From NCBI GenBank assembly GCA_017983615.1, contig JAGOBB010000006.1:87165-151164 (forward strand): a stretch of 64,000 nt of DNA, given 5' to 3'. The position numbers and the translations under genes are program-made. The notes under the pieces are model-generated. The model saw nothing but the letters and a program-made list of their open reading frames with translations, had not been told where the DNA came from and did not search any database. Below, piece by piece: positions 2,423 through 50,977 of this stretch (position 1 is its first letter; every line of letters starts with the position of its first letter). The DNA is from Azonexus sp. Its GTDB lineage: Bacteria; Pseudomonadota; Gammaproteobacteria; Burkholderiales; Rhodocyclaceae.

Positions 2423-2817
2423 ATTTCCAGTTCTGTAACGTTCCGGCCGTCGCGGTAGTCGTGGCGCAGTGCTTTGCACAGTCCACGGATCAGCGGGAGG
2501 CCCAGACCGCCCAATGCTACGGTCGGCTCGTTTTTTGGGCCATTTTCAGAAAAATCGAAGGGCGGGGCTTCGTCCTCGTAGCGCGCGGCCAGCGCTTGCC
2601 CATTGCGGCCGACGGAAAGGCGGACGGAATGGTCGCTGTCGCCGCCGTAGCCGTGGCTGATCGTGTTGGTGAATAACTCCTCAATGACCAGTTGCAGGCG
2701 CTTCGCATCGTCTTCCGTGGCGCCCACTTCGGCGGCTGCGCGGGCGGTCGCCGCGAGCAGGCCGGGCAACTCGGAATAGCGTGCGTTGACGGAAATCTCC
2801 GTAAAATGACAGGACAT
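2419..2817 (-). CDS. RsbW-like anti-sigma regulatory ATPase (HATPase_c_2)
   Basis: About 132 residues with a GHKL ATPase fold. The N-box is in EELFTNTISHGYGGD and the glycine-rich box is GGLGLPLIRGL. No histidine-kinase phosphoacceptor domain is present. In this family such proteins bind an anti-sigma antagonist (STAS) or a sigma factor and phosphorylate the STAS serine. The STAS protein at 6949-7296 and the PP2C phosphatase at 3864-5993 would complete a partner-switching set. I chose the ATG at 2817 because the homologous part starts there; a longer frame reaches 2853 but would overlap the divergent gene start at 2839. The 3' end overlaps the permease stop by 4 bp, convergently. Repeat copy 1 of the dispersed motif lies inside the gene and encodes part of its C-terminal half. 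Confidence 0.8.
   Translation of the reverse strand: MSCHFTEISVNARYSELPGLLAATARAAAEVGATEDDAKRLQLVIEELFTNTISHGYGGDSDHSVRLSVGRNGQALAARYEDEAPPFDFSENGPKNEPTVALGGLGLPLIRGLCKALRHDYRDGRNVTELEI
2513..2550 (+). repeat. Dispersed uptake-signal-like motif, copy 1
   Basis: Exact core AATGCTACGGTC at 2513-2524, then six bases, a T tract at +19 to +24 and a second A/T tract (ATTTT) at +30 to +34. It lies within the RsbW-like gene and is antisense to it (sense peptide EPTVALG). Confidence 0.8.
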
Positions 2818-2838
2818 TGAATCGACTCGGGTTTTCTT

Positions 2839-3297
2839 ATGATTAAAACACACTGGGCTGCCCTTTGCGTGCTGGCGGCCACCATCGCCCCGGGGATGGC
2901 CGCCGCCGGCGACGCTGCCGGCATGGTCAAGGTCGTCAAAGGGACGGTCAGTATCGAGCGGGACGGGAAGCGGCAGGCGGCAGGCGTCGGCATGCCGGTC
3001 GAGGTCGCCGACCGCATCCGGACGGGGACCGACGGCTCGGTGGGCGTCACGCTGCGCGACAACACCCTGCTGTCGGCCGGGCCAAATTCACTGGTCGTGA
3101 TCGACAAGTTCGCCTTCGACAACGCCACGCAGGACGGCCACATGTCGGTCGGCATCCGCCGCGGCACGCTGTCCGTCGCCTCGGGAAAGATCGCCAAGCG
3201 GACCCCGGAATCGGTCGATTTCCACACGCCGACCTCGGTGCTCGGCGTACGCGGTACCGAGTTTGTCGTCGAAGTGGCGGGAGATCGCGATGAATAG
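2839..3297 (+). CDS. Secreted FecR-domain protein
   Basis: A 152-residue protein. Residues 1 to about 23 form a signal peptide (hydrophobic core CVLAATIAPGMAAAG). The rest is a FecR domain: VKVVKGTVSIERDGK, a DRIRTG turn, RRGTLSV, then the closing TPTSVLGVRGTEFVVEV motif. Here the domain is free-standing and periplasmic, unlike the membrane-anchored sigma regulator FecR. Its stop overlaps the start of the next gene (ATG at 3290) by 8 bp, so the two are translationally coupled. Stand-alone FecR proteins are often found near CHASE2 sensors, as here. The ligand is unknown. Confidence 0.85.
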   Translation: MIKTHWAALCVLAATIAPGMAAAGDAAGMVKVVKGTVSIERDGKRQAAGVGMPVEVADRIRTGTDGSVGVTLRDNTLLSAGPNSLVVIDKFAFDNATQDGHMSVGIRRGTLSVASGKIAKRTPESVDFHTPTSVLGVRGTEFVVEVAGDRDE

Positions 3298-3877
3298 GCT
3301 CAAGCTCTCACTGGCGCTGGCCGGGTTGCTCGTTCTCGCCGGCTGCACGACCGAGCGCGTAGTGCTGCTGCCGTCGGCCGATGGCACACGCAGCGCCGTC
3401 GTCGTCCGCGATGCCAAGGGCGAAGTGTCGCTCGACAAGCCCTACGCGGCGGTCAAGCGCAGCCTGGATGCCAACACCGGCTACCAGTCGTCGCCCGACG
3501 AGGTCAAGGCGCGTTTTGCCGGCGCCCTGGCTGCCCAGCCGGCCCGTCCGGCCAGCTACGTGCTGTATTTCGAAGCCGGCGGCAATGTGCTGACGCCGGA
3601 ATCGCAGGCGGCATTGACCACTATCCGCCAGGAAATTGCCGAACGGGCCGCCTCGGAAGTCATGGTCATCGGCCATACCGACCGTGTCGGCAGCGTCGAG
3701 GGCAACGACAGACTATCGCTGCAGCGGGCCGAGGGCCTGCGCGACCTGCTGGTCGAGTCGGGCGTGCCAGCCGAAAAGATGGAAGCCGTTGGCCGCGGCG
3801 AGCGCGATCCGCTGGTGCCTACCGCGGACGAGGTGGACGAACCGAAGAACCGGCGCGTCGAGATCAGCGTGCGATAG
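3290..3877 (+). CDS. OmpA-family outer-membrane lipoprotein
   Basis: 195 residues from the ATG at 3290. A lipoprotein signal (lipobox LAGC, Cys about residue 18) is followed by a linker and an OmpA C-terminal domain: VLYFEAGGNVLTPES, then VMVIGHTDRVGS, LSLQRAEGLRD and the closing NRRVEISVR. The HTD and NRRVE motifs are the peptidoglycan-binding signature. It likely tethers the outer membrane to peptidoglycan. A longer frame from 3263 exists, but only the 3290 start gives a clean signal peptide. It is coupled to the FecR gene and its 3' end overlaps the convergent CHASE2 gene by 14 bp. Confidence 0.88.
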   Translation: MNRLKLSLALAGLLVLAGCTTERVVLLPSADGTRSAVVVRDAKGEVSLDKPYAAVKRSLDANTGYQSSPDEVKARFAGALAAQPARPASYVLYFEAGGNVLTPESQAALTTIRQEIAERAASEVMVIGHTDRVGSVEGNDRLSLQRAEGLRDLLVESGVPAEKMEAVGRGERDPLVPTADEVDEPKNRRVEISVR

Positions 3878-5993
3878 GTCCGCACCAGCGCATCAAAAGC
3901 ACGGTCAGGTCGTCCGCTGCCGGCTGGCCTGCCTCGAAGCGCCGTACGCTGTCGCGCAACGCGTCAGCGGCATCCTGCAGGCTACTCGTCGCCGGAATCT
4001 CGGCCAGGCAGTCCAGCAGACGGTCGCTGCCAAACAGCTTGGTACCGTTCATGGCTTCGGTCACGCCATCGGTGAACAGGCAAAGCAGGTCGCCGGGCTG
4101 CAACTGCGTCCGCGCGGCGACATAGGGGTAGCTGCCGGCGGCACAAAGCGGCGGGCCGGCAATGGCTTGCGTGTCGATCCGCGACAGGCTGCCCTGGCGG
4201 CGCAGGATAGGCGCATCGTGGCCGGCGCAGACGTATTCCATGGTCCCGTCTTCGACATCGATGACGGCGATGAAGGCGGTGACGAACAGGTATTCCGGGT
4301 TTTCGCGGTTCAGCTCGGCCTCGATGTCGCGCAGGGCCAGACCGAGGTCGGCGTGACGACGGGTCAGCGTGCCGGTCAGGGTTTTCGAGATGGCCATGAA
4401 CAGGCTGGCCGGCACGCCCTTACCGGACACATCGCCGATCGCCAGGCAGAGCCGCCGCTCGTCGAGCATGAAGCAGTCGTAGTAGTCGCCGCCAACGGCA
4501 CGCGCCGGTTCGAGCAGGGCGGCGACCGAAAAGCGGCTTTCGCCTGCAAACAGCGTTGCCGGATCGGGTAGCAGGCCCATCTGGATGCGCCGGGCCGCAT
4601 CGAGTTCGCCGTTGATCCGGGCGGCCTCTTCGCGGCTCGCCTGCAGTTGCCGCTCCGCTTCGCGGCGCTGGCTGTCGGCGGCAATCAACGTGTTGCCGAG
4701 CAGTGAAATAAAGACCGGGCTGAGCAGCAGCAGTTGCGACGCGCCGTCGAACAGCCAGCGACCGGCCAGGAAGGCGAGGTGTCCGCCGGCCAGGATCAAC
4801 AAGGTGACCGCGGCGAAGCTGAGCACTGCGTAGCGCCGCGCCCGCAGCGCCGGAATCGTCGCGATCAGCAGCAACCCGCCCATCAGCAGCGTGGCCATTT
4901 CCAGGCGCGGCATCCAGTACGGACGCCGTAGCGCCTGGCCAGCCAGCGCGCTTTCGATGACCTGGACGTGGATGTCGATCCCGGGCAGGCTTTCGCCGCG
5001 CGGCGTGACGATGCGGTCCTGCAAGCCGGTGCTGTTAAAGCCGATGATCACGAAGCGCGAGCGAAAGAATTCGGGCGGATGAACGCCGGCCAGCACATCG
5101 GCGGCTGACAGGTAGTAGCTGGAACTGGCCTTGCCGAAATGCAACAGCAACTCTCCGTTGGCCTGGGTCGGCAGGCGGTAGTCGCCGATGCGGATCGCGG
5201 TCATGCCTTCCGGCCCGCCTTCGGTGACGACGGTGCCACCTTCGCCCAGAGCCTGGCGCAGCATTTCCAGCGGCAGGGACAGGAAAGGCAGGTCGTTGAT
5301 CAGGGCCAGCGTCGGCACTCGACGCAGGACGCCACGCTCGCTGTTTGCCTGCAGCGGGCCCGGGCTGGCGTTGATCAGCCCTTCGCCGGCAGCGGCCTGT
5401 TCGAGCAGCGGGCGGCTGGCCAGGGCAGCGGCGAAGCGGGGGAGGTCGCGGCCGCTCCCGGTCTCCTGATTGAAGGCGGGCAAGGGGCGAGCCGGTTGTG
5501 TCGAGCCTGGTAGAGGATTGCTCAGGCCGACAACGGCGAGGACGGCCGGCGGGCCGGCCAGTGCCCTGGCCAGTTGGCGGTCGGGATCTGGCAGGCTCGC
5601 GATGCTTGCCGCGGGCAGTTCGGGATAGCGCGCGGCCAGCACTTCCGGGCTGTAGCGGTCGCGCTCGGCAAAAACGACATCGATACCCAGCGCCAGCGGC
5701 TTGCCGGCCTGGATGCGATCCACCAGCCGTCCGAGCAGGTCGCGCGACCATGGCCACTGGCCGTGCTTGACCAGGCTCTGGCTGTCGATGCCGACGACGA
5801 TGACCGGTTCGCTGTCGCGCTGACGCGGCATCAGGCGCTGATAGAGGTCGAACTGGGTTTCGCGGACGCTGAGCAGCGGCGTGTTGTCGATGCCGTTGAG
5901 GATCAGGGCGGCGATGACCAGCAGGAGCAGCGGCAAGGCCCGGCCGCGTCCGGCACGGAACACGGCGAGGGCTGGTCCGCTCGGCTTGCTCAC
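3864..5993 (-). CDS. CHASE2 sensor with PP2C/SpoIIE phosphatase output
   Basis: 709 residues. One N-terminal membrane segment (about 18-32) is followed by an extracytoplasmic CHASE2 domain (about 40-355), three membrane segments (about 365-445), a short coiled coil and a cytoplasmic PP2C/SpoIIE domain (about 485-700). Metal-binding aspartates are visible in VGGDYYD, AIGDVSGKG and FTDGVTEA. The family dephosphorylates STAS-domain anti-sigma antagonists. Downstream and overlapping by 4 bp is the MBL hydrolase gene, whose own start overlaps the STAS gene, so STAS-MBL-CHASE2/PP2C form one operon read leftwards. It presumably converts an envelope signal into dephosphorylation of the STAS partner. 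Confidence 0.9.
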   Translation of the reverse strand: MSKPSGPALAVFRAGRGRALPLLLLVIAALILNGIDNTPLLSVRETQFDLYQRLMPRQRDSEPVIVVGIDSQSLVKHGQWPWSRDLLGRLVDRIQAGKPLALGIDVVFAERDRYSPEVLAARYPELPAASIASLPDPDRQLARALAGPPAVLAVVGLSNPLPGSTQPARPLPAFNQETGSGRDLPRFAAALASRPLLEQAAAGEGLINASPGPLQANSERGVLRRVPTLALINDLPFLSLPLEMLRQALGEGGTVVTEGGPEGMTAIRIGDYRLPTQANGELLLHFGKASSSYYLSAADVLAGVHPPEFFRSRFVIIGFNSTGLQDRIVTPRGESLPGIDIHVQVIESALAGQALRRPYWMPRLEMATLLMGGLLLIATIPALRARRYAVLSFAAVTLLILAGGHLAFLAGRWLFDGASQLLLLSPVFISLLGNTLIAADSQRREAERQLQASREEAARINGELDAARRIQMGLLPDPATLFAGESRFSVAALLEPARAVGGDYYDCFMLDERRLCLAIGDVSGKGVPASLFMAISKTLTGTLTRRHADLGLALRDIEAELNRENPEYLFVTAFIAVIDVEDGTMEYVCAGHDAPILRRQGSLSRIDTQAIAGPPLCAAGSYPYVAARTQLQPGDLLCLFTDGVTEAMNGTKLFGSDRLLDCLAEIPATSSLQDAADALRDSVRRFEAGQPAADDLTVLLMRWCGPIAR

Positions 5994-7296: not shown

Positions 7297-7372
7297 TGTC
7301 GCGTACGGGATAGGGGTGTTTTGGAAGCGGCAAGTATGCCATGCCGGTCGGCCCACTCGGGTAAAATAGTGT

Positions 7373-9547
7373 ATGAATTCGAATCAGCAGTCTGTCAGTC
7401 AAATGCCGCGTCCGCTCTTTGGTTATCGCAAATTCTGGGCGCACCGCTTTGGCCCGGCGCCCTTCCTGCCCATGTCACGTGCCGAAATGGAGGCGCTAGG
7501 CTGGGATTCGTGCGACATCGTCCTGGTTACCGGCGATGCCTACATCGACCATCCGAGTTTCGGTATGGCCTTGATCGGCCGCCTTCTCGAAGCCCAGGGC
7601 TTCCGCGTCGGGATCATCTGCCAGCCGGACTGGAATTCGGCCGCGGATTTCAAGAAGCTGGGCAAGCCCAACCTGTTCTACGGCGTCACTGCCGGCAACA
7701 TGGATTCGATGGTCAACCGCTACACGGCCGACCGCAAGATCCGCTCCGACGACGCCTATACGCCGAACGGCGAACCGAACAAGCGGCCGGATCGTACCGT
7801 CACCGTCTATGCCCAGCGTTGCCGCGAGGCTTTTCCGGGCGCCGCCGTGATTATTGGCTCCATCGAAGCCAGTCTGCGCCGCATCGCGCACTACGACTAC
7901 TGGTCGGACAAGGTGCGCCGTTCGGTCCTGCCCGATTCGAAGGCCGATCTGCTGGTCTTCGGCAACGCCGAACGGGCCATTGTTGAAGTGGCACACCGAC
8001 TGGCCAAGGGCGAGAAGATCGGTGATATCCGCGACCTGAAAGGCACGGCCTTCATGGCCTCGCCAGGCTGGTTGCCGTCGGATGACTGGGAAGCCATGGA
8101 CTCGACCTCGGTCGACACCCCGGGGCCGCTGGTCAAGCATGCCGATCCGTATGCCATGGAAAATGGCCCCGCCCAGGCACCGACCGTAGCATTGCCCGGC
8201 GAACACGCCGTACGCATCGTTTCCCGCGAGGAACGCCTGGCCGCGCGGCGCGACCGCCGGGCACACACGGTCATCCGCCTGCCGTCCTACGAGCAGGTTG
8301 TGGCCGACCCGGTGCTCTACGCCCACGCCTCGCGCACCTTCCACCTCGAATCCAATCCCGGCAATGCCCGGGCGCTGGTTCAGGCCCACGGCGAACGCGA
8401 CGTCTGGCTGAATCCGCCGCCGATCCCGCTGACCACTGAAGAACTCGATGCGGTCTACGAACTGCCCTATGCCCGACGGCCGCATCCGGCCTACGGCGAA
8501 GCGAAGATTCCCGCCTGGGAGATGATCCGTTTCTCGGTGAACATCATGCGCGGCTGTTTCGGCGGCTGCACCTTCTGTTCGATCACAGAGCACGAGGGGC
8601 GCATCATCCAGAGCCGTTCGGAAGATTCGGTGATCCGCGAAATCGAGGAAATGCGCGACAAGACGCCGGGCTTCACCGGTGTCGTCTCCGACCTCGGCGG
8701 CCCGACAGCCAACATGTTCCACCTCAAGTGCAAGGACGAGAAGATCGAATCGGCCTGCCGGCGTTTGTCCTGCGTCTATCCGGACATCTGCGAGAACATG
8801 AATACCGACCACTCGAAGCTGATCTCGCTGTACCGCAAGGCGCGTTCGCTGAAGGGGGTCAAGAAGGTGCTGATCGGCTCCGGGTTGCGCTACGACCTCG
8901 CCGTGCGCTCTCCCGAATACATCAAGGAACTGGTCACCCACCACGTTGGCGGCTATCTGAAAATCGCGCCGGAACATACCGAGGAGGGTGTGCTCTCCAA
9001 GATGATGAAGCCCGGCATCGGCTCTTATGACCGCTTCAAGCAATTATTCGACCGTTTTTCGCGCGAGGCCGGCAAGGAGCAATACCTGATCCCGTACTTC
9101 ATCGCAGCCCATCCGGGGACAACCGACGAGGACATGCTCAACCTGGCGCTGTGGCTGAAGAAGAACAATTTCCGGCTCGACCAGGTGCAAACCTTCATCC
9201 CGACCCCGATGGCGATGGCAACGACGATGTACCACAGCGAGCGCAATCCGCTGCGCAAGGTCAATCGCAGTAGCGAACACGTCGGGGCCGTGCGCAACGG
9301 CCGCCAGCGCAAGCTGCAGAAGGCGTTCCTGCGCTATCACGATCCGGCCAACTGGCCGCTACTGCGCGAGGCGCTGAAGGAAATGGGCCGGGCCGACCTG
9401 ATCGGCAACGGCAAGAAGCAGCTGATTCCGGCGTGGCAACCTGCAGGGACGGGCGGTGCATCGGCCCCGACGCGAACACCGGTGCGGCGCAGTACCCCCC
9501 CGCTGCGCGGTGCGCCGGTCCGGCGTACGAGGCCCTCCGGGAAGTAG
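7373..9547 (+). CDS. YgiQ family radical SAM protein
   Basis: 724 residues, the usual size for YgiQ/UPF0313. The conserved N-terminus ([19 protein letters not shown]) precedes the radical SAM core with the cluster-binding CFGGCTFC near residues 394-401, followed by [14 protein letters not shown] and LGGPTANM. The C-terminal tail (about 690-724) is proline/arginine rich and probably disordered. The reaction is unknown. A variable hydrophilic insert at about residues 225-290 contains copy 2 of the dispersed motif. The gene is divergent from the STAS operon with a 76-bp gap. Confidence 0.9.
8156..8193 (-). repeat. Dispersed uptake-signal-like motif, copy 2
   Basis: Exact core (reverse strand) at 8182-8193. 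The first tract position is GC-rich in this copy; the second A/T tract (ATTTT) is at +30 to +34. It lies inside the YgiQ gene, encoding APTVALPG in a variable insert. Confidence 0.75.
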
Positions 9548-11310: not shown

Positions 11311-11316
11311 GGCCTA

Positions 11317-14410: not shown

Positions 14411-16324
14411 TTAAGGGATGCTTTCCCCCAAAATGCTACGGTCGGCCAGATATTTTGCCGAAAATTCAGCGGCATTGACCGGCCGTCCGGTCAGGTAGCC
14501 CTGAATCGTTTCGCAGCCCAGTGATTTGAGGAATTCAAACTGGGCTTCAGTTTCGACGCCCTCGGCCACCACTTCCAGCGACAGGCTCTGCGCCATGGCG
14601 ACGATGGCGCGCACCAGTGGTTCGCTCCCGCCGGTAGTGCCATCGAGGGGCAGGGCGTTGATGAACGAACGGTCGATCTTCAGCGTGTTGATCGGCAGGC
14701 GGTGGAGGTAAGAAAGGGAGGAGTAGCCAGTCCCGAAATCGTCAAGTGCAATGCGTATGCCGGCATCGCGCAGGCGCATCAATTCCTCGATGCAGCCGCT
14801 GTCCGCATCGAGCAGCACCGATTCGGTGACCTCGACCTCCAGGGCGGAATTGGGTACGCCAGCCGCCAGAAGGGCATCGATGATGTAGCGCGAAACCGAC
14901 GGGCGCCAGAACTGCCGGGGCGAAAGGTTGATCGTGATCGGGACCGGATCGGCATACTGCTCTCGCCAACGGGCAATCTGGGCAATGGCGCGATCGATGA
15001 CCCATTCTCCGATGGGGAGAATCAGGCCGCTTTCCTCGGCGACGGGGATGAAGCGATCGGGGGGGACCTGTTTTTCGCCATCGTGCCAGCGCAGTAGAGA
15101 CTCGGCACCGACGAGCCGCCGGCTGAGGGTGTCGACCTTGGGCTGGAAATGGAGATCGAGCTGGTTGTCCTGAATTGCCCGTCGCAAGCTGATTTCCAGA
15201 CTCATACGGGAAACCACGCGCTCATCCATCTGCTGGGTATGCGTCCGGATGGCGTTCCCGCCAGCCCCCTTCGCCTCATACATCGCAGTATCGGCATGGC
15301 GCAACAGGGTTTCGCCATCGCCCGCATCGTCAGGAAAGAGGCTGACACCGATACTTGCGCTGGTGAAATAGTCCGTTTCATCCCCGGTAATCGGAGTGGC
15401 GATGACTTCCTTCACCTTGCTGGCTACCGATAGCGCAGCTTCGGCATTAGCCACCGGCGCCAGAAGAACAATGAACTCGTCGCCTCCCTGACGATACAGT
15501 CGGCCGTTCCCGGCCAACTTGTTGCCAACGCGTTTGGCCATCATTTGCAACAAGCGATCTCCTGCACGGTGACCCAACGTGTCATTGATGTTCTTGAAGC
15601 GGTCCAAGTCGAAAAACAGCACGGCTAACTGATGATTCATGAGCTTTGCAGCGTTGATCGCTTCGCTCAGGTGCTCAGCAAACAGCAGGCGATTGGGCAA
15701 CCCGGTCAGCACATCGTGCCGGGCAAGAAACTCCAGTTCGTCCTGATGATCTCGGCGCTGAGTGATGTCGGTCACCGAGCCGACCATCTGGTAGGCCAGC
15801 CCCTGCCTGTTGCGCACGGCAAGGCCACGTGAGGCGATCCAGCGATAAAGTCCGTCGCTGGCCAGTACGCGGTACTCGCAGTAGAAATACTCGCTATCTC
15901 CTTTCAGATGCAGCGCGACTGCCCGGTTATAGCTTGCTACATCGTCCGGATGCACCAGACGAAACCAAGCGTTGGTATCGGGGAGGAAATCCTCGTGATA
16001 ACCCAGGATTTGTAGCAGCCGCCGCCCGACATGAAGCGCCTTGGTTTGCGGATTCCATTCCCAGAAGCCATCGTGCGCCGCCAGCATTGCCATCTCGTAG
16101 GCACGGCTGACCGACTGGAAATGTCGCCATTCCTCGACGACGATCCAGGTTATCGCCAGCAATACGAGAACCAGAGACAAGGCAGTTCCGATTCCCGGCG
16201 CAAGCAGGTATGCGGCCAAAGCAACTGCCGCCGCGACTGCCAGGGCCATCAGATGAAACTTGCGGTTGCCTTGTAGCAGCGGTGACCAGTTGGGTCGGGA
16301 TAACTGCCGGCCGGTTTCCGGCAT
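14411..16324 (-). CDS. PAS-GGDEF-EAL c-di-GMP signalling protein
   Basis: 637 residues. Two N-terminal membrane segments (about 24-65), a PAS domain of PAS_3 type (FWEWNPQTKALHV to LVHPDD), GGDEF (RQGGDEFIVL intact; FDLDRFKNINDTLGHRAGD) and a C-terminal EAL domain. The EAL motif reads ESL, but the other phosphodiesterase residues are present: INLSPRQF, EVEVTES, LDDFGTGYSS, LKIDRSF, VAEGVET, QGYLTG. It could both make and break c-di-GMP; which activity dominates cannot be told. The last residues (DRSILGE) are encoded by copy 3 of the dispersed motif, so the C-terminal tail may have been remodelled by it. It starts 4 bp after the moaA stop and is probably co-transcribed with it. Confidence 0.92.
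   Translation of the reverse strand: MPETGRQLSRPNWSPLLQGNRKFHLMALAVAAAVALAAYLLAPGIGTALSLVLVLLAITWIVVEEWRHFQSVSRAYEMAMLAAHDGFWEWNPQTKALHVGRRLLQILGYHEDFLPDTNAWFRLVHPDDVASYNRAVALHLKGDSEYFYCEYRVLASDGLYRWIASRGLAVRNRQGLAYQMVGSVTDITQRRDHQDELEFLARHDVLTGLPNRLLFAEHLSEAINAAKLMNHQLAVLFFDLDRFKNINDTLGHRAGDRLLQMMAKRVGNKLAGNGRLYRQGGDEFIVLLAPVANAEAALSVASKVKEVIATPITGDETDYFTSASIGVSLFPDDAGDGETLLRHADTAMYEAKGAGGNAIRTHTQQMDERVVSRMSLEISLRRAIQDNQLDLHFQPKVDTLSRRLVGAESLLRWHDGEKQVPPDRFIPVAEESGLILPIGEWVIDRAIAQIARWREQYADPVPITINLSPRQFWRPSVSRYIIDALLAAGVPNSALEVEVTESVLLDADSGCIEELMRLRDAGIRIALDDFGTGYSSLSYLHRLPINTLKIDRSFINALPLDGTTGGSEPLVRAIVAMAQSLSLEVVAEGVETEAQFEFLKSLGCETIQGYLTGRPVNAAEFSAKYLADRSILGESIP
14432..14469 (+). repeat. 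Dispersed uptake-signal-like motif, copy 3
   Basis: Exact core AATGCTACGGTC at 14432-14443, then GGCCAG, A/T tract 1 (ATATTTT, +19 to +25), GCCG, and A/T tract 2 (AAAATT, +30 to +35) followed by CAG. It overlaps the 3' end of the GGDEF-EAL gene, antisense (sense DRSILGE). One of the three best full-length copies. Confidence 0.85.
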
Positions 16325-17830: not shown

Positions 17831-19525
17831 ATGGACCCGAATCTCATCTACGCAAAAACCCCAACTGGCGACGAGGCAGTGCGTCAAAGCACACGTGTCG
17901 TCCAGCGTAATTTGCGCATGGTGCTGGTCCTGGTTGATGGCAAGGTGAGCGTCGCGGAATTGTCGGCAAAAATCGGCAATCCACGCCTGGTTGAATCGGC
18001 TTTGCGTGAGCTGGAAGAGGGCGGTTACATCGCGCCGACTATCGAAGCCGTGTCAGTGTGGGAAGAAAGCCGCAAGAACGCTCAAAACGAGTCTCCGCAG
18101 GCGGTTGCTTCAGCAATGTCGGAATTTTCGACATTCGGCCCAAAATCGCTCAGTGGTGCAGCTTCTCGATCCGGACAAAGTGCTGCCAGCAATTTTTCTT
18201 CTTTCGGAAAACCGATTCTGCCCACTGCGAACGGCTTTGATATTCCCCTGGTACCTTTGGAGCGATCGCCGGCAAGAGAACCCGAGCCGGTGGATGACAT
18301 TGAAAAATCGCCGCTTTTTCGCGTGCGCTCGGTCATGCTGGGTGGCGCGGCCATTGTCGTTACGCTTTTGGGCGCAGCGCTGTTCTACCCCTACGAGAAA
18401 TTCAAACCCGGCCTTGAGACAACAGCGTCGCAACTCGTCAATGCTCCGATCAAGATAGATCACGTGGAGCTTGCATTTTTTCCCAGCCCACATCTGAAAT
18501 TGACGGGCATCCGGATAGGGGAGCCATCCGACGGAAAGATTGCCGAAGTCAGGGTTTCATCGCCGTTGTCCCTGCTTGGCGGAGCGCCGCACAAGATTTC
18601 CAGAATCGACATTTCCGGCGCGGCGATATCATCCAATCGCCTGGTTTCCATGCCCTTGTTTCGCGGCAGCAAGTTGAGCGACGGCGGCATCGAGGTGTCG
18701 AGAATCCATCTCGAGCAATCGCAGATATTGTTGGGTGAGCAACTGGCCCTGAGCGATATCTACGGCAACCTCGATATTCGTGCCGATGGCAAGTTGGAAA
18801 AAGCCGTCTTTGAAACAGCCGACCGTAGCCTTTTGGTCGACGTGACGCCAAGCGCCGCAGGAATTGTGCTGGGCATCGAGGGACGGGCCTGGAAGCCTTC
18901 GGGCAGCGCCATACTGTTTGCTTCTTTGCAGGCCAAGGGCCTGTTGCAGAACGACAAGCTGTTGGTCGAAAAGATCGATACCACCTTTCTGGGCGGAATA
19001 CTTCGCGGCAATTGGCTGCTCGACTGGAGCAATGGCCTGTCGATGGCAGGTGACGGAACACTGACTCGACTGGATAGCCGCAAGGTCAGCGAGGAGTTTG
19101 CGCCGTCCCTGAAGATCGAAGGCGACATGACAGGAAGCATTCGTCTGCGTTCTGTCGGGAGCGACTGGGAAACCCTGTGGCGCAACACTGAAGCCTTGCT
19201 GACTACAGAGATTACTCGGGGCATCCTGCACGGTGTTGATCTTGGCGAAGCGGCTCGCCGTGCCGGAGGCTCGGAAGTCCGGGCAGGGAGCACCAAGTTC
19301 GACCGGTTGCGCTCGACGATCAGTATTACCCCACGGCAGGTGGTTGGGCGCGAAGTACGCATGGACGCCGGCATGGTGACGGCAAACGGGCACTTCGTGG
19401 CCGAACGGAATGGGCAGGTCGATGGCACGATGGCGGTCACCCTTCAGAGTTCCGTATCGAGCCAGCGTGCCGCGGTCCGCGTTACTGGTGTCCTGCCGGA
19501 TTTGACTGCGACAGCCAGCAAATAA
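17831..19525 (+). CDS. Membrane-anchored AsmA-like protein with N-terminal helical domain
   Basis: 564 residues. The first 75 residues (QRNLRMVLVLVDGKVSVAEL, ALRELEEGGYI) look like a small winged-helix-type domain. A polar, low-complexity linker follows, then one membrane span (about 174-192), then an AsmA-like C-terminal region beginning ALFYPYEKFKPGLE and including VELAFFPSPHLKLTGIRIGE and the closing ADRSLLVD to TGVLPDLTATA part. AsmA-family proteins are envelope proteins linked to outer-membrane lipid transport. The cytoplasmic N-terminal module joined to an AsmA part is unusual. Copy 4 of the dispersed motif lies within the gene. Confidence 0.72.
   Translation: MDPNLIYAKTPTGDEAVRQSTRVVQRNLRMVLVLVDGKVSVAELSAKIGNPRLVESALRELEEGGYIAPTIEAVSVWEESRKNAQNESPQAVASAMSEFSTFGPKSLSGAASRSGQSAASNFSSFGKPILPTANGFDIPLVPLERSPAREPEPVDDIEKSPLFRVRSVMLGGAAIVVTLLGAALFYPYEKFKPGLETTASQLVNAPIKIDHVELAFFPSPHLKLTGIRIGEPSDGKIAEVRVSSPLSLLGGAPHKISRIDISGAAISSNRLVSMPLFRGSKLSDGGIEVSRIHLEQSQILLGEQLALSDIYGNLDIRADGKLEKAVFETADRSLLVDVTPSAAGIVLGIEGRAWKPSGSAILFASLQAKGLLQNDKLLVEKIDTTFLGGILRGNWLLDWSNGLSMAGDGTLTRLDSRKVSEEFAPSLKIEGDMTGSIRLRSVGSDWETLWRNTEALLTTEITRGILHGVDLGEAARRAGGSEVRAGSTKFDRLRSTISITPRQVVGREVRMDAGMVTANGHFVAERNGQVDGTMAVTLQSSVSSQRAAVRVTGVLPDLTATASK
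18795..18832 (-). repeat. Dispersed uptake-signal-like motif, copy 4 (degenerate)
   Basis: Core AAGGCTACGGTC (one mismatch) on the minus strand at 18821-18832. Tract 1 is TTCAAA at +19 to +24 and tract 2 is TTTTT at +31 to +35. Sense peptide ADRSLLVD. Confidence 0.6.
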
Positions 19526-23481: not shown

Positions 23482-26097
23482 TTATTTGCCGGTTTCGACC
23501 ATGACCAACGGTTCGCTGTCAGTGTTTTCTGAAACTGGCTTCTGCTTGCGCGGACGGCCCAGTTTGACCGGCAGTTCAGCCGGTGCCATGGCAACCGGAG
23601 CGGCCGTGGTCTGCACCATCACCAGCCCACTTCCGGCCAGTGCCGCATCGATGTCGACCGGCTCGGCAACAGGTGCAGGAGCAGATTCGATTTTTTGCAC
23701 TTCCAGGGCATCGACCGTAGCATTCTCGGTAGCGACCGGGGCAGGGGCGGCCACTTCGACGATCGGAGCAGGTTCGCTGACGACGGGAGCCGGCTCGACC
23801 GCCTGGGCAATCGGTTCCGCCTCGACAATCGGTTCTACTGCGGCCGGAATCGTGACGACGACGGGTTCTTCGACGATTGCTGCTTCAACAGGTGCTTCCG
23901 TTTCGACAGCCATTTCGGTAACCGGCGCGACGGCAGCGTTGTCCGCCTCATTGCGACGCTCGCCACGGCCACGACCACCGCGACGACCGCGACGACGACC
24001 GCCTTGCTCTTCGTTACCCTGGCCTTCGGGCGCTTCGCCACCTGGCAACGGTGCAACGACGGCCAGATCGCTCACCGGCGCCTGAACCAGCTTGCTTTCT
24101 ACTGCTTCCGGTTGCTGACGCTCACGACGCTCCTTGCGTTCGCCGCGCGGACGGCGCTCCTGGCGCTCGCCATTGCCGGCAGCAGACTCATCGCCCGGGG
24201 CTTTTTCTGCATTGCGCTCGTTGCGATTGCCGCGTTCCTTGTTGCGTTCGCCGCGCTCTTCGTCGCGCTTGTTGCCGTTGCGGCCGCCACGACGGCCATC
24301 GCGGTCGCGACGGCCATCGCCACGGCCTTCACGCGGCTTCTTGGCCGGGGCCGGTTCGGCGACCGGCTCCACCGGCTTGGCCGGAGCACGGAACCACGAG
24401 AAGATTTTCGAGAACAGGCCGCCTTCCGGCTGAACTGCGACCGGAACAGTCGCGGCGACTTCAGTCTTTTCCGGAAGGTTCGGTGCCGGCTGATCCGGCG
24501 AAATGCCCTTGATGGCGGCTTCCTGGCGCGGTTTGGCGGCTTCCATCTGGGTTGCCTGCTTGATGGCTTCTTCAAGCGGCATGTCGACCATCTTGTAGGA
24601 CGGTTCGCGGACATCGTCCTGGTTCAGGTCGTCGTGGCGCAGACGGGTGATCGTATGGGCCGGTGTTTCGAGATGAACGTTCGGGATCAGCAGGATGGTG
24701 ACCTTGTGGCGCAACTCGATGGCCTGGATGTCCGGACGCTTTTCGTTGAGCAGGAAGGTGGCGACATCGACCGGTACCTGGACATGCACGGCGCCGGTAT
24801 TTTCCTTCATCGACTCCTCTTCCAGGATGCGCAGGATGTGGAGTGCAGCTGATTCGGTGGAGCGGATGTGGCCGGTGCCGGTGCAGCGCGGGCAGGGAAT
24901 GTAGCTGGTTTCGGCCAAAGCCGGGCGCAGGCGCTGACGGGACAGTTCCATCAGGCCGAAGCGGCTGATCTTGCCCATCTGGACGCGGGCACGGTCAAAA
25001 CGCAGCGCATCGCGCAGGCGATTTTCGACTTCGCGCTGGTTTTTGGTGTTTTCCATGTCGATGAAGTCGATCACGATCAGGCCACCCAAGTCGCGCAGAC
25101 GCAACTGGCGGGCCAGTTCTTCAGCGGCTTCGAGGTTGGTCTTGAACGCGGTTTCCTCGATGTCGGAACCCTTGGTGGCCCGACCGGAGTTGACGTCGAC
25201 AGCGACCAACGCTTCGGTGTGGTCGATGACGATGGCGCCGCCAGACGGCAGGTTAACCTGGCGAGCGAAGGCCGTCTCGATCTGGTGTTCGATCTGGAAG
25301 CGCGAGAACAGCGGCACGTCGTCGCGGTAGCGCTTGACGCGATTGACATTGCCGGGCATGACCGTGCCCATGAAGGCGCGGGCCTGCTCGTAAACCTCGT
25401 CGGTATCGATCAGGATCTCGCCGATGTCCGGCTGGAAGTAGTCACGGATGGCGCGAATGACCAAGCTGCCTTCCAGGTAGATCAGGAAAGCGCCGCTCTG
25501 CTGCTGAGCGGCGCCGTCGATGGCGGTCCACAGTTGCAGCAGGTAGTTAAGGTCCCACTGCAGTTCTTCAGCCTGGCGGCCGATAGCGGCGGTGCGGGCG
25601 ATCAGGCTCATGCCGTTGGGCACTTCGAGCTGATCCATGATTTCGCGCAGTTCGGCGCGTTCGTCACCGTCGACACGACGGGAAACGCCACCGCCACGCG
25701 GGTTGTTCGGCATCAGCACGAGGTAGCGGCCGGCCAGCGAAACGTAGGTGGTCAGGGCGGCGCCCTTGTTGCCACGTTCGTCCTTGTCGACCTGGACGAT
25801 CAGTTCCTGACCTTCCTTTAGCGCCTCCTGAATCTTGGCGCGGCCGACGTCAGTACCCGGATGGAAAAAAGCGCGGGAAACTTCCTTGAACGGCAGGAAG
25901 CCGTGGCGATCGGCACCGTAATCGACGAAGCAGGCTTCGAGAGACGGTTCGATGCGGGTAATGACACCCTTGTAGATGTTGCTCTTGCGTTGTTCCTTGG
26001 CGGCGGACTCAATGTCGAGATCAATCAGTTTCTGACCATCGACAATGGCGACACGGAGTTCTTCCGCCTGTGTCGCATTGAATAGCATGCGTTTCAT
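23482..26097 (-). CDS. rne: Ribonuclease E
   Basis: 871 residues. The S1 domain (about 36-120; [20 protein letters not shown]) is embedded in the catalytic half. DNase I-like domain: [11 protein letters not shown] and LIVIDFIDM carry the catalytic aspartates. The zinc-link is CPRCTGTGH. After about residue 520 the chain becomes disordered, with Arg/Gly/Glu-rich blocks ([14 protein letters not shown]) and an Ala/Pro/Val/Glu-rich tail: the RNA-binding and degradosome scaffold part. It cuts single-stranded AU-rich RNA and matures rRNA and tRNA. Its long upstream region is likely a regulatory leader. Copy 5 of the dispersed motif encodes [15 protein letters not shown] in the tail. Confidence 0.97.
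23687..23724 (-). repeat. Dispersed uptake-signal-like motif, copy 5
   Basis: Exact core on the minus strand at 23713-23724. Tract 1 is weak (CTGGAA); tract 2 is AAAAAAT at +29 to +35. Same strand as rne, within its disordered C-terminal tail. Confidence 0.8.
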
Positions 26098-26499: not shown

Positions 26500-27504
26500 A
26501 TGAACGTGGCAGGGAACAAATCGGTCGCCCATGTAGTGATTGCCGAAGAAGAGCAGGGCCAGCGCCTCGACAATTTTCTGATCAGGCGTTGCAAAGGCGT
26601 CCCGAAAAGTCATATCTACCGGATATTGCGCAGCGGCGAAGTGCGGGTGAATAGCGGCCGGGTTGATGCGACCTACCGCCTTTGCCAGGGCGATAACGTG
26701 CGCATTCCGCCGATCCGTATTGCCGAGCGGCCGCAGAACGAGGTCGAGGAAGCAGCCAAGGAACGTGTCGATCTACCGATCATCTACGAAGACGACGCAA
26801 TGCTTGTCATCGACAAGCCGGAGGGCATTGCCGTCCATGGCGGCAGCGGTGTCAGTTTCGGCGTTATCGAAGCCCTGCGCCGGCAGCGACCGCAGGCCAA
26901 GTTCCTCGAACTGGCGCACCGCCTGGACCGGGAAACCTCGGGCGTCCTGCTCGTCGGCAAAAAGCGCCTGGCGCTGACCGCATTGCACGACATGTTCCGC
27001 GAACACGGCGCTGGCGCCGACAAGCGCTATCTGGTGCTGGTCAAGGGGCGCTGGATGAACAATACCCAGCACGTCAAGCTGCCGCTATACAAATACTTGA
27101 CCGAAGGCGGCGAGCGTCGGGTGATGGTGCGCGACGACGGCAAGGCATCCCACACGGTATTCCGCCTGCTCGCCCGCTGGCCGGAGATGAGCCTGCTCGA
27201 GGCGCAACTGAAGACCGGGCGCACCCACCAGATTCGGGTGCATCTGGCGCATCTGGGTTTCCCCATCCTCGGCGACGAGAAGTATGGCGATTTTCCGCTG
27301 AACAAAGCCTTGAAACGCGATGGCCTGAAACGCATGGCCTTGCACGCCTGGCGGATGGCTTTCCGTCACCCGCTGAGTGCAGTGCCTGTCGAATGTGTCG
27401 CGCCATTGCCTGATGGCCTTAGAAGCTACATTGCTACGGTCGATGCCCAAAAAGGCCGTGAATTCACCGCCGAAAATCTTGAATCGATACTCTCCCAACG
27501 ATGA
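26500..27504 (+). CDS. rluC: 23S rRNA pseudouridine synthase RluC
   Basis: 334 residues. An N-terminal S4 RNA-binding domain (QRLDNFLIRRCKGVPKSHIY) is followed by the RluA-type catalytic domain with the active aspartate in AHRLDRETSGVLL. The adjacency to rne matches the arrangement in many proteobacteria. It modifies three uridines in the large-subunit rRNA. There is no Shine-Dalgarno sequence before the ATG. The C-terminal residues IATVDAQKGREF are encoded by copy 6 of the dispersed motif. The stop overlaps the next gene start by 4 bp. Confidence 0.94.
   Translation: MNVAGNKSVAHVVIAEEEQGQRLDNFLIRRCKGVPKSHIYRILRSGEVRVNSGRVDATYRLCQGDNVRIPPIRIAERPQNEVEEAAKERVDLPIIYEDDAMLVIDKPEGIAVHGGSGVSFGVIEALRRQRPQAKFLELAHRLDRETSGVLLVGKKRLALTALHDMFREHGAGADKRYLVLVKGRWMNNTQHVKLPLYKYLTEGGERRVMVRDDGKASHTVFRLLARWPEMSLLEAQLKTGRTHQIRVHLAHLGFPILGDEKYGDFPLNKALKRDGLKRMALHAWRMAFRHPLSAVPVECVAPLPDGLRSYIATVDAQKGREFTAENLESILSQR
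27430..27467 (+). repeat. Dispersed uptake-signal-like motif, copy 6
   Basis: Core ATTGCTACGGTC (one mismatch) at 27430-27441. Tract 1 is CAAAAA at +19 to +24; tract 2 is AATT at +32 to +35. Sense with rluC near its 3' end. Confidence 0.7.
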
Positions 27505-35600: not shown

Positions 35601-35629
35601 GCAAGGCCGGCCTCATGGGCCGGCCTTGC
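35601..35629 (+). terminator. Hairpin between acpP and fabF
   Basis: An 11-bp GC-rich stem GCAAGGCCGGC / GCCGGCCTTGC with a 7-base loop and only a weak T-rich tail. Probably a partial terminator or 3' stabiliser giving more acpP than fabF mRNA. Confidence 0.65.
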
Positions 35630-35652
35630 TACATTTGCTTTCGGAGTGCATC

Positions 35653-36916: not shown

Positions 36917-37354
36917 GTGCAGTTTCCGGTCATCATCGGACTGCACCGTTCCAGCTTTCTGGATGCCGGATTTGGCATTCTCCTCGTATCCGCAGGGGCG
37001 CTAACGGCGGCCTGGCCTCAAACCGAGCCATATCGCCTGCTTCTCCTGGCATGGATAGCCGTGGCTGGGCTCCTTACGTGGAGGCGCCTGACACCTGCAT
37101 TTTCTGCGATAAGACTCGAGCACGACGGCCGAATAATGGTGATGCGTTGCGGCGAGGCAGAATTCGTTGCCGCAGAACCCCAGCCCGGCGCGATCGTCCA
37201 TCCTTGGCTATGCGTTGTTCGCCTGAAAATGGCCGATGGCCGAGTCCGGACCTTGAATGCTACGGTCGGCCCTAAAAATTGCCAAAATTTCAGACGCTTG
37301 CGCGTTTTCCTGCGCTGGCGCGCAAAATTCAACGAACCGGCTGACGACGCCTGA
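36917..37354 (+). CDS. YgfX-like small inner-membrane protein
   Basis: 145 residues, GTG start. Two hydrophobic segments near the N-terminus ([28 protein letters not shown]) are followed by a beta-rich soluble part ending [10 protein letters not shown]. The architecture and the position beside nadB-rpoE fit the YgfX/CptA-like family; sequence identity is too low for certainty. The 3' end overlaps nadB convergently by 26 bp. Residues [12 protein letters not shown] are encoded by copy 7 of the dispersed motif. Confidence 0.65.
37256..37293 (+). repeat. Dispersed uptake-signal-like motif, copy 7
   Basis: Exact core at 37256-37267, GGCCCT, A/T tract 1 (AAAAATT, +19 to +25), GCC, A/T tract 2 (AAAATTT, +29 to +35), CAG. 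The clearest complete copy. Confidence 0.85.
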
Positions 37355-38906: not shown

Positions 38907-39024
38907 GGCTGTTCTCTGTAAGGGGAATTTTGAGCCAAATATAGCACGCATGAAACGATTGATCCCGTTACAGTCAGTCACAAATAAGGAGAATTCCCTG
39001 TATTCTGCTGAAAAATGGCTGCGC

Positions 39025-39030: not shown

Positions 39031-39077
39031 GTGTTCAATAAACATACTAACGACCACCCCCAGGGAAAATGAGAACC

Positions 39078-39679: not shown

Positions 39680-40114
39680 ATGGATACAGATCAGGTAATC
39701 GTCCGAGCGGTTGTCCGGGCGGTAGACGGTGAGTCAGCCTTGGTCGAAGTGGAGCAAGGCGGTTGCGGCCGCTGCCATGAAGAAGGCGGTTGTGGTGGTC
39801 AACAGCTGACGCAGATGTTCTGCAGTGGTCCGAAAAGCTATCGCGTAACCAATGCAGTCGGCGCCATGATCGGTGATCGGGTCAAGATTGCCGTCGCACC
39901 GGGGAGCGTCAGGCGCACTGCGAATTTGGCCTATATTTTGCCGCTGACCGTAGCAATTGCCGGCGCAGTTATTGGGATGCCGTTCGGCGGGGATATCGGG
40001 GCGATCGTTGGCTCGGTCTGCGGGATTTTTGCAGCCTATCTGTATATCCTTTTTCGTACCCGGCAGGGGGCTGGAAATATGGCTGAGGGTCCCCATATCA
40101 TTTCCCGTTCTTGA
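39680..40114 (+). CDS. rseC: RseC/MucC-family membrane protein
   Basis: 144 residues from the ATG at 39680. The N-terminal cysteine motif is GCGRCHEEGGCGG, followed by two membrane spans (LAYILPLTVAIAGAVIG; AIVGSVCGIFAAYLYILF). RseC is linked to SoxR reduction and to RpoE control. It sits between rpoE and mucD. Copy 8 of the dispersed motif encodes part of the first membrane span (LTVAI). Confidence 0.9.
   Translation: MDTDQVIVRAVVRAVDGESALVEVEQGGCGRCHEEGGCGGQQLTQMFCSGPKSYRVTNAVGAMIGDRVKIAVAPGSVRRTANLAYILPLTVAIAGAVIGMPFGGDIGAIVGSVCGIFAAYLYILFRTRQGAGNMAEGPHIISRS
39920..39957 (-). repeat. Dispersed uptake-signal-like motif, copy 8
   Basis: Core ATTGCTACGGTC (one mismatch) on the minus strand at 39946-39957. 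Tract 1 is AAAATATA at +19 to +26; tract 2 is AAATT at +31 to +35; CAG follows. It lies inside rseC, antisense. Confidence 0.75.
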
Positions 40115-43642: not shown

Positions 43643-43650
43643 GAATAGCG

Positions 43651-44439: not shown

Positions 44440-44450
44440 GGGGAAAACAG

Positions 44451-44801: not shown

Positions 44802-44807
44802 CAAGTC

Positions 44808-47846: not shown

Positions 47847-48220
47847 TCTACGGTATCGGCACCGATATCGTTGCCGTTGCCCGCCTGCGCGGCATGTGGG
47901 AAAGGCACGGCGAACGGGTGCTGGACAAACTGCTGGCTGCGTCCGAGCAGGCCGATTTTGCCAAGGCACCTGACAAGGGCCGTTTTCTTGCCAAGCGTTT
48001 TGCTGCCAAGGAAGCCTTCGCCAAGGCCCTGGGCACCGGCATTCGTCCGCCGGCGACACTGACGGCCATCGGCGTCGGCCACGACGATCTGGGCAAGCCG
48101 GTCATTGAATGCTACGGTCAGCTCGAAAAAATGGTCAAAATCAAAAACCTGAAAACTCACCTTTCGATCAGCGACGAAGCCGACTACGCCGTCGCCTACG
48201 TGATTCTGGAGCAAGCATGA
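47843..48220 (+). CDS. acpS: Holo-ACP synthase
   Basis: 125 residues. Motifs [12 protein letters not shown] and [19 protein letters not shown] hold the magnesium-binding Asp and Glu. It attaches phosphopantetheine to AcpP. Residues [13 protein letters not shown] are encoded by copy 9 of the dispersed motif. The stop overlaps nagZ (ATGA). Confidence 0.96.
48108..48145 (+). repeat. Dispersed uptake-signal-like motif, copy 9
   Basis: Exact core at 48108-48119. Tract 1 is AAAAAAT at +19 to +25; tract 2 is AAAAT at +30 to +34. Sense with acpS, in a reading frame different from the other sense copies (ECYGQ). Confidence 0.8.
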
Positions 48221-49236: not shown

Positions 49237-49241
49237 AATGC

Positions 49242-49267
49242 ATTCGGGCAGCCGAAGCTGCCCGAAT
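49242..49267. terminator. Hairpin between nagZ and efp
   Basis: ATTCGGGCAGC, CGAA loop, GCTGCCCGAAT. A stable stem between convergent genes, without a long T run. Confidence 0.7.
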
Positions 49268-49289
49268 CAAACACTGAAGAATCCGCGGA

Positions 49290-49847
49290 TTACTTGACGC
49301 GGTTCTTGTATTCGTCGGTGCGGGTGTCGATTTCGATCTTGTCGCCGATGCTGACGAAGGCCGGAACCGGCAGTTCGAAACCAGTGGCCAGCTTGGCCGG
49401 CTTCATGACCTTGCCGGAAGTGTCGCCCTTGACGGCGGGCTCGGTGTAAACCACTTCGCGCACGACGCTGTTCGGCAGTTCGACCGAAATCGCCTTGCCG
49501 TTGTAGAAAACGACTTCACAGGCCAGACCGTCTTCCAGATACTTCAGCGCGTCGGTCATGTTTTCGGCTTCGACTTCGTACTGGTTGTAGTCGGCGTCCA
49601 TGAAGACGTACATCGGATCGGCGAAGTAGGAGTAGGTCACTTCCTTCTTGTCGAGGACGACCACTTCGAACTTGTCGTCGGCCTTGTAAACCGCTTCGGA
49701 AGCGGCGCCGGTCAACAGGTTCTTGAGCTTCATTTTGACCACGGCAGCATTGCGACCGGACTTGTTGTACTCGCTCTTCTGAACGACGAGCGGGTCGGCA
49801 CCGACCATGATGACGTTGCCGGAGCGGAGTTCCATTGCGGTTTTCAT
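49290..49847 (-). CDS. efp: Elongation factor P
   Basis: 185 residues. Domain I loop [15 protein letters not shown] places Arg at position 32, the residue rhamnosylated by EarP, where E. coli has a lysine. Domains II-III follow ([20 protein letters not shown]). It relieves ribosome stalling at polyproline. earP lies just upstream on the same strand. Confidence 0.97.
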
Positions 49848-49885
49848 ACGGGATTCTCTAAGATCGGAAAAAGATAAACGTTAAA

Positions 49886-50977
49886 TTATACCTTGGCGGC
49901 ACAGAATTTGACGAGTGCCGTCGCCAAATCGGGGGCCGTAGCCAGTTGATCCGCCCAGCGACGGTTGTGGGCGGCGATTTCTTCTTGGCGGTCGAGAAAA
50001 TCGCACCATGCCGGGGCGACACCAACTCCCGTATTCCAGGCCAGGAACATTCGGCGGACGACGCCTTCCAGCACATCGCTCATCCCCCGGCAATAGCGTT
50101 CGAGAAAAGCCTCCAGCTTGACCAGATGCGCCTCGTCATCCTGTCGATAGACCTGCCAGATGAAAGGCTTGGCAGCCCACTGAGCGCGCACGAACGAGTC
50201 TTCACCACGCACGAAATTGACATCGCAGGCCCACAATCGCGGGTCGTAATCATCCATGGGCACAAAAGGGACCGGCTTTATCGATGCATTGCCGAGGTGC
50301 CACGGACCACTTCCGCCCAGATACGCGGCCACAGCTGCCTGGGGTTTGCCCGGAAACACGTGGCAACGCACCGGCCCGGCAGATGCGGAGAGAGCTTCGA
50401 GCAGCGGACCGAGCGGCGCCGTTTCATAGCAGAACAGGCTGATATCGATTTCGTTGCCATAAGGAAGGATGGACAGATATTCATCCCGCTCGCAAAGCAA
50501 CTCCTTTTCGCGCAGCAATCCACCGGTGGCTGAAGAAAAGCCCGGAAAGAAAAAATACTTGGTCAGCGGCAGGGTGGGGTGGGGCGACGCCATGCCGTGA
50601 CACTCTTCGGCCCAGCTTTCGGCCGTCAGATATTCCAGATTGATCCAGCACGGCTTCCGTTCCGCGGCCGCCATCGCTTGAACATACGCCGGCGGAAGTT
50701 CGCAGGCAAAGGCTTCGATTATTACCTCTGCAGGAGGGGTGACCGTAGCATTTGCCGTCCAGTGGCGAATTTCGACGCCGGCAACCGATTGGCTGGCCAC
50801 CGATGGATCGACCTCGGGGCAAAGCGGGCTCAGACTCGCAACATCGTCTACCCACAGGCGTACCTGGCGCCCATGTTCGGCTACCAACTGACGGGCCAAC
50901 CGCCAGCACACGCCGATGTCTCCGTAGTTGTCGATCACCCGGCAAAAGATGTCCCAATGAAGCTGCATGGCCGCCAT
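49886..50977 (-). CDS. earP: EF-P arginine rhamnosyltransferase EarP
   Basis: 363 residues from the ATG at 50977, which has GGGG 8 bp upstream; an in-frame ATG at 50968 is possible. The N-terminus WDIFCRVIDNYGDIGVCWRLARQL is the DUF2331/EarP signature, and PFVPMDDYDPRLWACDVNFVRGEDSFVRAQWA is the conserved C-terminal part. It transfers rhamnose from TDP-rhamnose to Arg32 of EF-P. 38 bp upstream of efp. Copy 10 of the dispersed motif encodes NATVTPPAEVIIE. Confidence 0.94.
   Translation of the reverse strand: MAAMQLHWDIFCRVIDNYGDIGVCWRLARQLVAEHGRQVRLWVDDVASLSPLCPEVDPSVASQSVAGVEIRHWTANATVTPPAEVIIEAFACELPPAYVQAMAAAERKPCWINLEYLTAESWAEECHGMASPHPTLPLTKYFFFPGFSSATGGLLREKELLCERDEYLSILPYGNEIDISLFCYETAPLGPLLEALSASAGPVRCHVFPGKPQAAVAAYLGGSGPWHLGNASIKPVPFVPMDDYDPRLWACDVNFVRGEDSFVRAQWAAKPFIWQVYRQDDEAHLVKLEAFLERYCRGMSDVLEGVVRRMFLAWNTGVGVAPAWCDFLDRQEEIAAHNRRWADQLATAPDLATALVKFCAAKV
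50715..50752 (-). repeat. Dispersed uptake-signal-like motif, copy 10
   Basis: Exact core on the minus strand at 50741-50752. Tract 1 is absent (GC-rich); tract 2 is TAATAAT at +29 to +35. Sense with earP. The last copy in the window. Confidence 0.7.

Follow-up and report, generated by a model that had tools for sequence, protein, structure and literature searches.

A candidate self-specific DNA uptake signal with a new core in a single genus of Rhodocyclaceae

A dispersed element of about 40 bp recurs along a 64,000-nucleotide stretch of an Azonexus sp. assembly (GCA_017983615.1, contig JAGOBB010000006.1; hereafter the window). We consider this element a candidate self-specific DNA uptake signal of one genus, similar in layout to the uptake signal sequence (USS) of the Pasteurellaceae and built on a new core; judged from sequence comparisons, the probability of this reading is about 0.85. 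The strongest support comes from dialects within the genus, from a concerted dialect change at aligned sites (position +8) and from conservation that depends on lineage, and these observations support the uptake-signal interpretation offered in an earlier note made from the window alone. The layout, the new core and the genome-wide spread all hold. To our knowledge, uptake sequences serving as a label of self have so far been described in only two bacterial families. A literature search found no uptake sequence in Rhodocyclales, Rhodocyclaceae or Dechloromonas and, among the matches listed, the papers matching the letter strings of the motif were unrelated by title. Below, G-numbers denote the 76 genomes of the genus (G000 being the assembly of the window itself), L-numbers loci and C-numbers contigs.

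The 12-mer AATGCTACGGTC forms the core and was found 451 times in G000 (2.92 Mb, 85.7% complete), with 228 copies on the forward and 223 on the reverse strand, whereas its reversed letters did not occur. This amounts to 154 exact copies per Mb and lies far above background, a comparison that the earlier note had proposed. In a 400 kb sample, the 12-mer was the most strongly enriched of all: it was present 72 times where an order-3 Markov model predicts 0.04. Copies were distributed over many contigs, among the first 100 places listed. A sample of 464 kb, comprising the window and 20 further stretches, contained 79 exact, 15 one-mismatch and 24 two-mismatch copies; perfect copies exceed one-mismatch copies, as is typical of uptake sequences.

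Logos were built from the exact copies alone (79 of the 118 with at most two mismatches) and gave the consensus R-AATGCTACGGTC-G-g-C-C-n-n followed by A/T tracts. The first tract spans +19 to +24 and is mostly A; a G/C block at +26 to +29 separates it from the second at +30 to +34, after which come Y at +35 and a third, A-rich tract at about +37 to +40 that was absent from the earlier note. The tracts are kept as A-or-T rather than as a specific sequence, and no conserved position was found outside about -3 to +40 in these aligned copies. Background-level counts, unconserved tracts beyond the window and confinement to one region had been named in advance as outcomes that would speak against the proposal; none of the three was seen. 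Hundreds of copies in both orientations, with helically spaced A/T tracts, are as expected of a genomic uptake sequence.

Within the window, the seven exact copies were recounted at the positions first reported, and the three one-mismatch copies listed with them are present (Table 1); a fourth, AATGCTACGGTG at 43506, lacks A/T tracts and had gone unlisted. The ten listed copies are divided equally between the strands. When the flanks were judged by eye, all ten carried the tract at about +30 to +35, with A or T in no fewer than four of five letters, and the seven marked in Table 1 as possessing both tracts carried another at +19 to +25, as had been described. Matches with at most two mismatches number 15 in the window, against 3.8 expected from shuffles.

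The exact 12-mer is frequent in few members of the genus, namely G000 (451), G069 (372) and G051 (310), the other 73 genomes having at most 53, because other members hold the wider pattern ACGGTC-N7-W5-N6-W4. Places matching this pattern number 100 to 659 in 19 of the 76 genomes, 21 to 99 in a further 19, 10 to 19 in six and 0 to 9 in 32; reversed-pattern controls gave 0 to 6. Outside the genus, a family sample of 395 genomes included 373 from 67 other genera, each with 0 to 4 places. An order sample of 399 genomes comprised 386 from other families with 0 to 9 places (reversed controls there reached 42) and seven of the same family outside the genus with 0 or 1. In these samples the motif is restricted to one genus.

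Members of the genus use different forms of the element. Dialects were read from alignments of ACGGTC and its tracts, only sites with ACGGTC being collected; the stretches of G015, G002, G020, G049, G050, G009, G004 and G029 were partly placed around known motif places, and their densities lean high. The first group, AATGCTACGGTCGGCC, is that of G000 and of a few sites in G051. The second (AAC), TGCYACGGTCAACCGG, has unchanged tract spacing and occurs in G015, G049, G036, G026, G021 and G061, with G050 showing more GAC; the third, a GAC-type form, occurs in G002 and G009. Enrichment of k-mers, in stretches some of which had been chosen around 12-mer places, returned CNACGGTCAACCGGAAAA-type words in G015 and TTCACGGTCGACCGTG-type words in G002, and no clear motif in the stretches of G014 (80 kb) or G020 (120 kb). 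A control core, CTGGCA, with the same tracts was found 0 to 2 times per genome; no motif emerged from 243 kb taken from 14 motif-poor genomes. Two local peculiarities were observed. Several copies of G002 (L159-L162) are head-to-head palindromes, CACGGTCGACCGTG, some inside longer inverted repeats resembling terminators. G020 has 659 places genome-wide, yet nearly all copies of the 120 kb fetched fall in the first 20 kb (L167, four sites named), with about one copy in the remaining 100 kb (within L167-L172).

The difference between the first two dialects is concerted. Where G000 was aligned with six AAC-dialect genomes and both cores were intact, base +8 was G (15 pairs) or C (one pair) in G000 and A in all 16 partners. 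Of the 10 distinct G000 sites that these pairs cover, three (37256, 39946 and 48108) belong to the window. The same change repeated site after site is as expected from a change in a common reader.

Conservation of the core follows the richness of the genomes compared. Between genomes with at least 300 places, ACGGTC was intact in 137 of 162 aligned pairs (75 distinct sites), compared with 85 of 407 for tract-less ACGGTC hexamers in the same alignments; the pairs here and in the classes below share sites and are not independent. The corresponding figures were 45 of 91 towards genomes with 40 to 299 places (control 36 of 230), 1 of 34 towards those with 9 to 39 (control 13 of 86) and 3 of 139 towards those with fewer than nine (control 31 of 321). 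Even in the lowest identity class (65-78%), the core was intact in 18 of 20 pairs against 3 of 42 controls. The comparison of orthologous loci, another check proposed at the outset, came out in favour of the signal: in rich relatives the core persists at aligned sites, each differing from G000 by one and the same dialect change, and motif-free congeners are without the sites. In a separate comparison, for which relatives' loci had mostly been picked for holding the motif, G000 copies faced an exact copy in 16 cases, a one-mismatch copy in one and unlike letters in five; at least some of these five are secondary alignments of 70-80% identity, and the claim of conservation rests on the intact-core tallies instead.

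A tree of three Arg proteins places these distributions on a phylogeny. It represents one locus and 25 of the 76 genomes, those among 41 loci with enough letters in the Arg genes. A branch with support 1.00 parts seven genomes with 1 to 30 places from the other 18, which include every genome of the tree with at least 67 places as well as G014 (29) and G023 (4). A single origin of the motif followed by later losses would fit this tree. Sharing of sites and dialects is directly visible; that dialects follow lineage is, with one locus and these 25 genomes, only sketched.

The spacing of copies is even. The smallest gap between neighbours in one stretch is 1,038 bp, none of 58 gaps falls below 1 kb against 10.4 in simulation, and the coefficient of variation is 0.60 against 0.91. 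Even, genome-wide spacing might equally be shown by a site that a cytoplasmic protein reads to order or process the chromosome, such as FtsK-orienting polar sequences (KOPS), Chi, matS or the target of a nucleoid protein, and A/T tracts spaced by a helical turn would suit an architectural DNA-binding protein. The copies nevertheless lack strand polarity: the two orientations are balanced across G000 and, in the single-contig G049, the first 50 places of the 10-mer listed are 24 forward and 26 reverse, well mixed across 1.5 Mb in 29 strand runs where shuffling gives 26. Furthermore, the core is not palindromic, dialects vary between congeners, and the 32 congeners with 0 to 9 places have equal needs of chromosome upkeep. 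We regard a chromosome-organising site as improbable. Both this and a mobile short repeat, the alternatives raised in the earlier note, fit worse than an uptake signal.

Many copies lie between genes. With home-made gene calls, redone since a first set (34 inside, 5 at an edge, 40 outside) had over-trimmed starts, 38 of the 79 sampled copies fell outside called genes against 10.5 expected (P = 9e-14); permuted 10-mers serving as control did so in 44 of 360 cases. The copies prefer non-coding DNA and are evenly spaced, both being features of uptake sequences. A position outside genes would also be expected of a site connected with regulation or transcription (a terminator, a regulator site or an RNA element), for which the palindromes and inverted repeats of G002 may likewise be cited; neisserial uptake sequences are reportedly located in terminators, and we count this in the same direction. 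The other 41 copies nonetheless lie inside called genes and in both orientations (20 sense and 14 antisense in the first calls). Taken with the even spacing, the concerted dialect change and the restriction to one genus, this leaves a regulatory site slightly less probable again than a chromosome-organising one. Least probable is a mobile short repeat (a repetitive extragenic palindrome, a miniature inverted-repeat transposable element or similar) spread by copying of the whole 40-bp unit: many perfect and few one-mismatch copies, a G009 copy (L277:1232) whose place in G015 and G049 shows a clean 35-bp gap, and the gaps in many broken-core alignments would agree with it, but the tracts are conserved as A-or-T and nothing beyond the element is conserved, an identical dialect change is unexpected for copies resting at fixed sites, the element is not palindromic in G000, neighbours stay at least 1,038 bp apart, and genic copies favour one reading frame in each orientation (16 of 20 sense, 11 of 14 antisense, first gene calls).

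Table 1. The ten listed copies of the element in the window, with gene context and, where available, the aligned site in G020.
Copy	Coordinates	Strand	Core and main A/T tracts	Gene context	Aligned site in G020
1	2513..2552	+	exact 12-mer core, both tracts	antisense within HATPase_c_2 gene 2419-2817(-)	
2	8154..8193	-	exact core 8182-8193, second tract only	antisense within radical SAM gene 7373-9547(+)	
3	14432..14471	+	exact core, both tracts	antisense, 3' end of PAS-GGDEF-EAL gene 14411-16324(-), facing TypA/BipA gene	
4	18793..18832	-	one mismatch, AAGGCTACGGTC at 18821-18832, both tracts	within AsmA-family gene 17831-19525(+)	
5	23685..23724	-	exact core 23713-23724, second tract	sense, 3' part of RNase E/G gene 23482-26097(-)	
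6	27430..27469	+	one mismatch, ATTGCTACGGTC, both tracts	3' end of pseudouridine synthase gene 26500-27504(+)	
7	37256..37295	+	exact core, both tracts	between ketoacyl-synthase gene (35626-36888) and FAD-binding gene (37329-38981, -)	AACCGG dialect
8	39918..39957	-	one mismatch, ATTGCTACGGTC at 39946-39957, both tracts	downstream of extracytoplasmic function (ECF) sigma factor gene (39069-39677)	AAC instead of AGC after core
9	48108..48147	+	exact core, both tracts	sense, 3' part of ACPS gene 47843-48220(+)	AAC instead of AGC after core
10	50713..50752	-	exact core 50741-50752, second tract	sense, within EarP gene 49886-51271(-)	

The HATPase_c_2 gene that contains copy 1 belongs to a small group at 2419-5993, together with a FecR-domain gene and a CHASE2-SpoIIE phosphatase gene, which may represent a partner-switching regulator.

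Comparison with the two described systems places the element beside both. For the USS and the DNA uptake sequence (DUS) of the Neisseriaceae, PMC1626085 lists the absence of orientation bias, spacing more regular than random, a preference for non-coding DNA and an unusually strong consensus; the present element shows all four traits. The USS exists in types that vary between subclades (Hin, AAGTGCGGT; Apl, ACAAGCGGT), and shares with our element a strict short core and, 3' of it, A/T-rich tracts spaced by about a helical turn, together with many copies, unbiased orientation, regular spacing, non-coding preference and an excess of perfect over one-mismatch copies (PMC1626085). The spacing of the tracts differs in detail. 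In the USS, one tract lies just 3' of the core with the second centred 12 nt further (PMC1626085); here they lie on the same side, 10-11 nt apart, and the first begins about 8 nt after CGGT as opposed to about 2, some 6 nt further out. The extended 17-nt USS forms AAAGTGCGGTCAATTTT and AACAAGCGGTCAAATTT contain CGGTCAA (PMC12616744), as does the TGCYACGGTCAACCGG dialect, a seven-letter match which by rough estimate would arise by chance in a few per cent of comparisons. Unlike the USS, for which GCGG is required (PMC12616744), the element has the inner core ACGG, with the proviso that only ACGGTC-containing sites were collected for the dialects; its third A-rich tract, its host outside the Pasteurellaceae and its several dialects within one genus likewise set it apart.

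The DUS (e.g. ATGCCGTCTGAA) occurs in dialects that track phylogeny, their few differing bases surrounding an unchanging inner core (PMC3630211). The present element resembles it in having dialects around a fixed inner core and in the encoding of a minor pilin of the ComP_DUS family. It departs from the DUS in possessing no CTG on either strand of the 12-mer (PMC3630211) and in its flanking tracts, which the DUS lacks (PMC1626085); in addition, its copy number is lower and the ComP-family pilin does not part rich from poor genomes. By this comparison, the element would work like the USS and DUS systems and is a member of neither.

As an uptake signal, the element would be read at the cell surface by a DNA receptor of the type IV pilus, probably a minor pilin recognising ACGGTC and the dialect bases on either side of it. 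The A/T tracts may be read by their shape or may ease bending, as argued for Haemophilus influenzae, in which tract shape affects uptake (PMC7811141). Copies would then accumulate by molecular drive, alleles with the tag entering cells and recombining more frequently; selection for self-recognition may or may not contribute.

Of the competence genes suggested for a further check, the analysis covered those for ComEC and a ComP-like minor pilin, and the 85.7% complete G000 encodes a protein of each kind. Besides an MSHA-like pilin cluster, this genome has a PF16732 (ComP_DUS) minor pilin at the edge of contig C23, with a GspH-family pilin next after it. Two alternative minor-pilin layouts exist in the genus, one with the ComP_DUS-family pilin followed by a GspH-type pilin and one with a cluster ending in the PF16732 pilin (L213:1-811, L263-L302); the minor-pilin sequences themselves are very divergent between congeners. 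In the Pasteurellaceae, the predicted receptor is the minor pilin PpdA/ComN, which is structurally near the FimT of Legionella (PMC12616744). From this likeness we infer that the GspH/FimT-like pilins of the genus are the first candidates for the receptor.

Several observations weigh against an uptake signal. The density of 154 exact copies per Mb is well below the one uptake sequence per kb of Haemophilus and Neisseria (PMC1626085). The 16 pairs that reveal the change at +8 are not independent, and the pairs from L014 and L021 hit one place in G021, so that no more than one of the two can be orthologous. Gaps interrupt the columns compared in 168 of 315 broken-core pairs and in 40 of 181 intact-core pairs, many of the gapped pairs being low-quality alignments between genes. 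With the clean 35-bp insertion that the G009 copy represents relative to G015 and G049, these gaps speak against a simple origin of all copies by point mutation, and some copies may have been inserted. The ComEC family is present in 71 of 76 genomes, most motif-poor ones included; competence genes consequently do not predict the motif. The PF16732 pilin is encoded in 70 of 76 genomes, whether rich or poor, and was not found in the rich G069. The AAC dialect accompanies both minor-pilin layouts, and the receptor was not found. A short major-type pilin follows the motif loosely, being present in 11 of 19 genomes with at least 100 copies and 13 of the 57 others (P = 0.009, chosen post hoc). Finally, G036 is rich in the motif (558 places) despite a comEC split by an island.

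The candidates for a genetic determinant fared as follows. With the distribution just given, the ComP_DUS-family pilin is not supported as a receptor explaining presence and absence of the motif, and operon layout does not explain the dialects. Divergent FimT-like tails were compared with nothing decisive emerging, and the lone pilins of complete genomes proved GspG-like by eye. The short major-type pilin (about 112-123 amino acids) contains conserved cysteines, matches Pfam only in its N-terminal methylation motif (L304, L307, L311, L315), and replaces or accompanies the usual PilA in 24 of 76 genomes. In a first look at six genomes it was present in three rich ones and no poor one; it is rejected as a requirement, given the weak association across the genus and its absence from the complete, motif-bearing G072.

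The comEC gene is damaged or split in the motif-poor G010 (1 copy), G013 (30), G023 (4) and G056 (6). In G023 (C1:1959178-1959913) the match lies in two pieces in different frames, in G010 (C8:1085724-1086371) it is a short open frame, and in G013 (C10:856383-856889) it contains an in-frame stop. As a cause of motif loss, a broken comEC is a trend at best; most poor genomes have a full match, and the rich G036 is split too. The matches of G036 (C33:109608-143311; L381, L382) and G056 (C1:2218693-2251157) are separated by 33.7 kb and 32.5 kb respectively, at the same profile position (28-29 / 26). The G036 island carries a large serine recombinase open reading frame adjoining comEC, a phage-type integrase, a type ISP restriction enzyme, a type B DNA polymerase and a UmuC-like polymerase. 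The splitting element seems to target comEC and would block transformation. The 33.7 kb island contains no motif copies against 6.1 expected (P = 0.002), which fits foreign DNA.

These comparisons make it likely that the element represents a third self-specific uptake system, one that evolved separately from those of the Neisseriaceae and Pasteurellaceae and is the first beyond these families, which arose in one genus and comprises at least three dialects that would hinder gene exchange between sister species. On that account, the CGGTCAA and 3' A/T tracts common to one dialect and the extended Pasteurellaceae USS would have one of two sources: strong convergence, or receptors (PpdA/FimT-type minor pilins) that descend from a common ancestor. 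With an unrelated genus as a third case, its sister species ranging from rich through intermediate to empty and its dialects changing at aligned sites, the system would make the origin of uptake specificity directly testable: how tags arise, spread, change and decay, whether A/T tracts are generally needed, and what pilin recognises it. A natural test of dialects as species barriers and a practical route to the transformation of these bacteria would follow as well.

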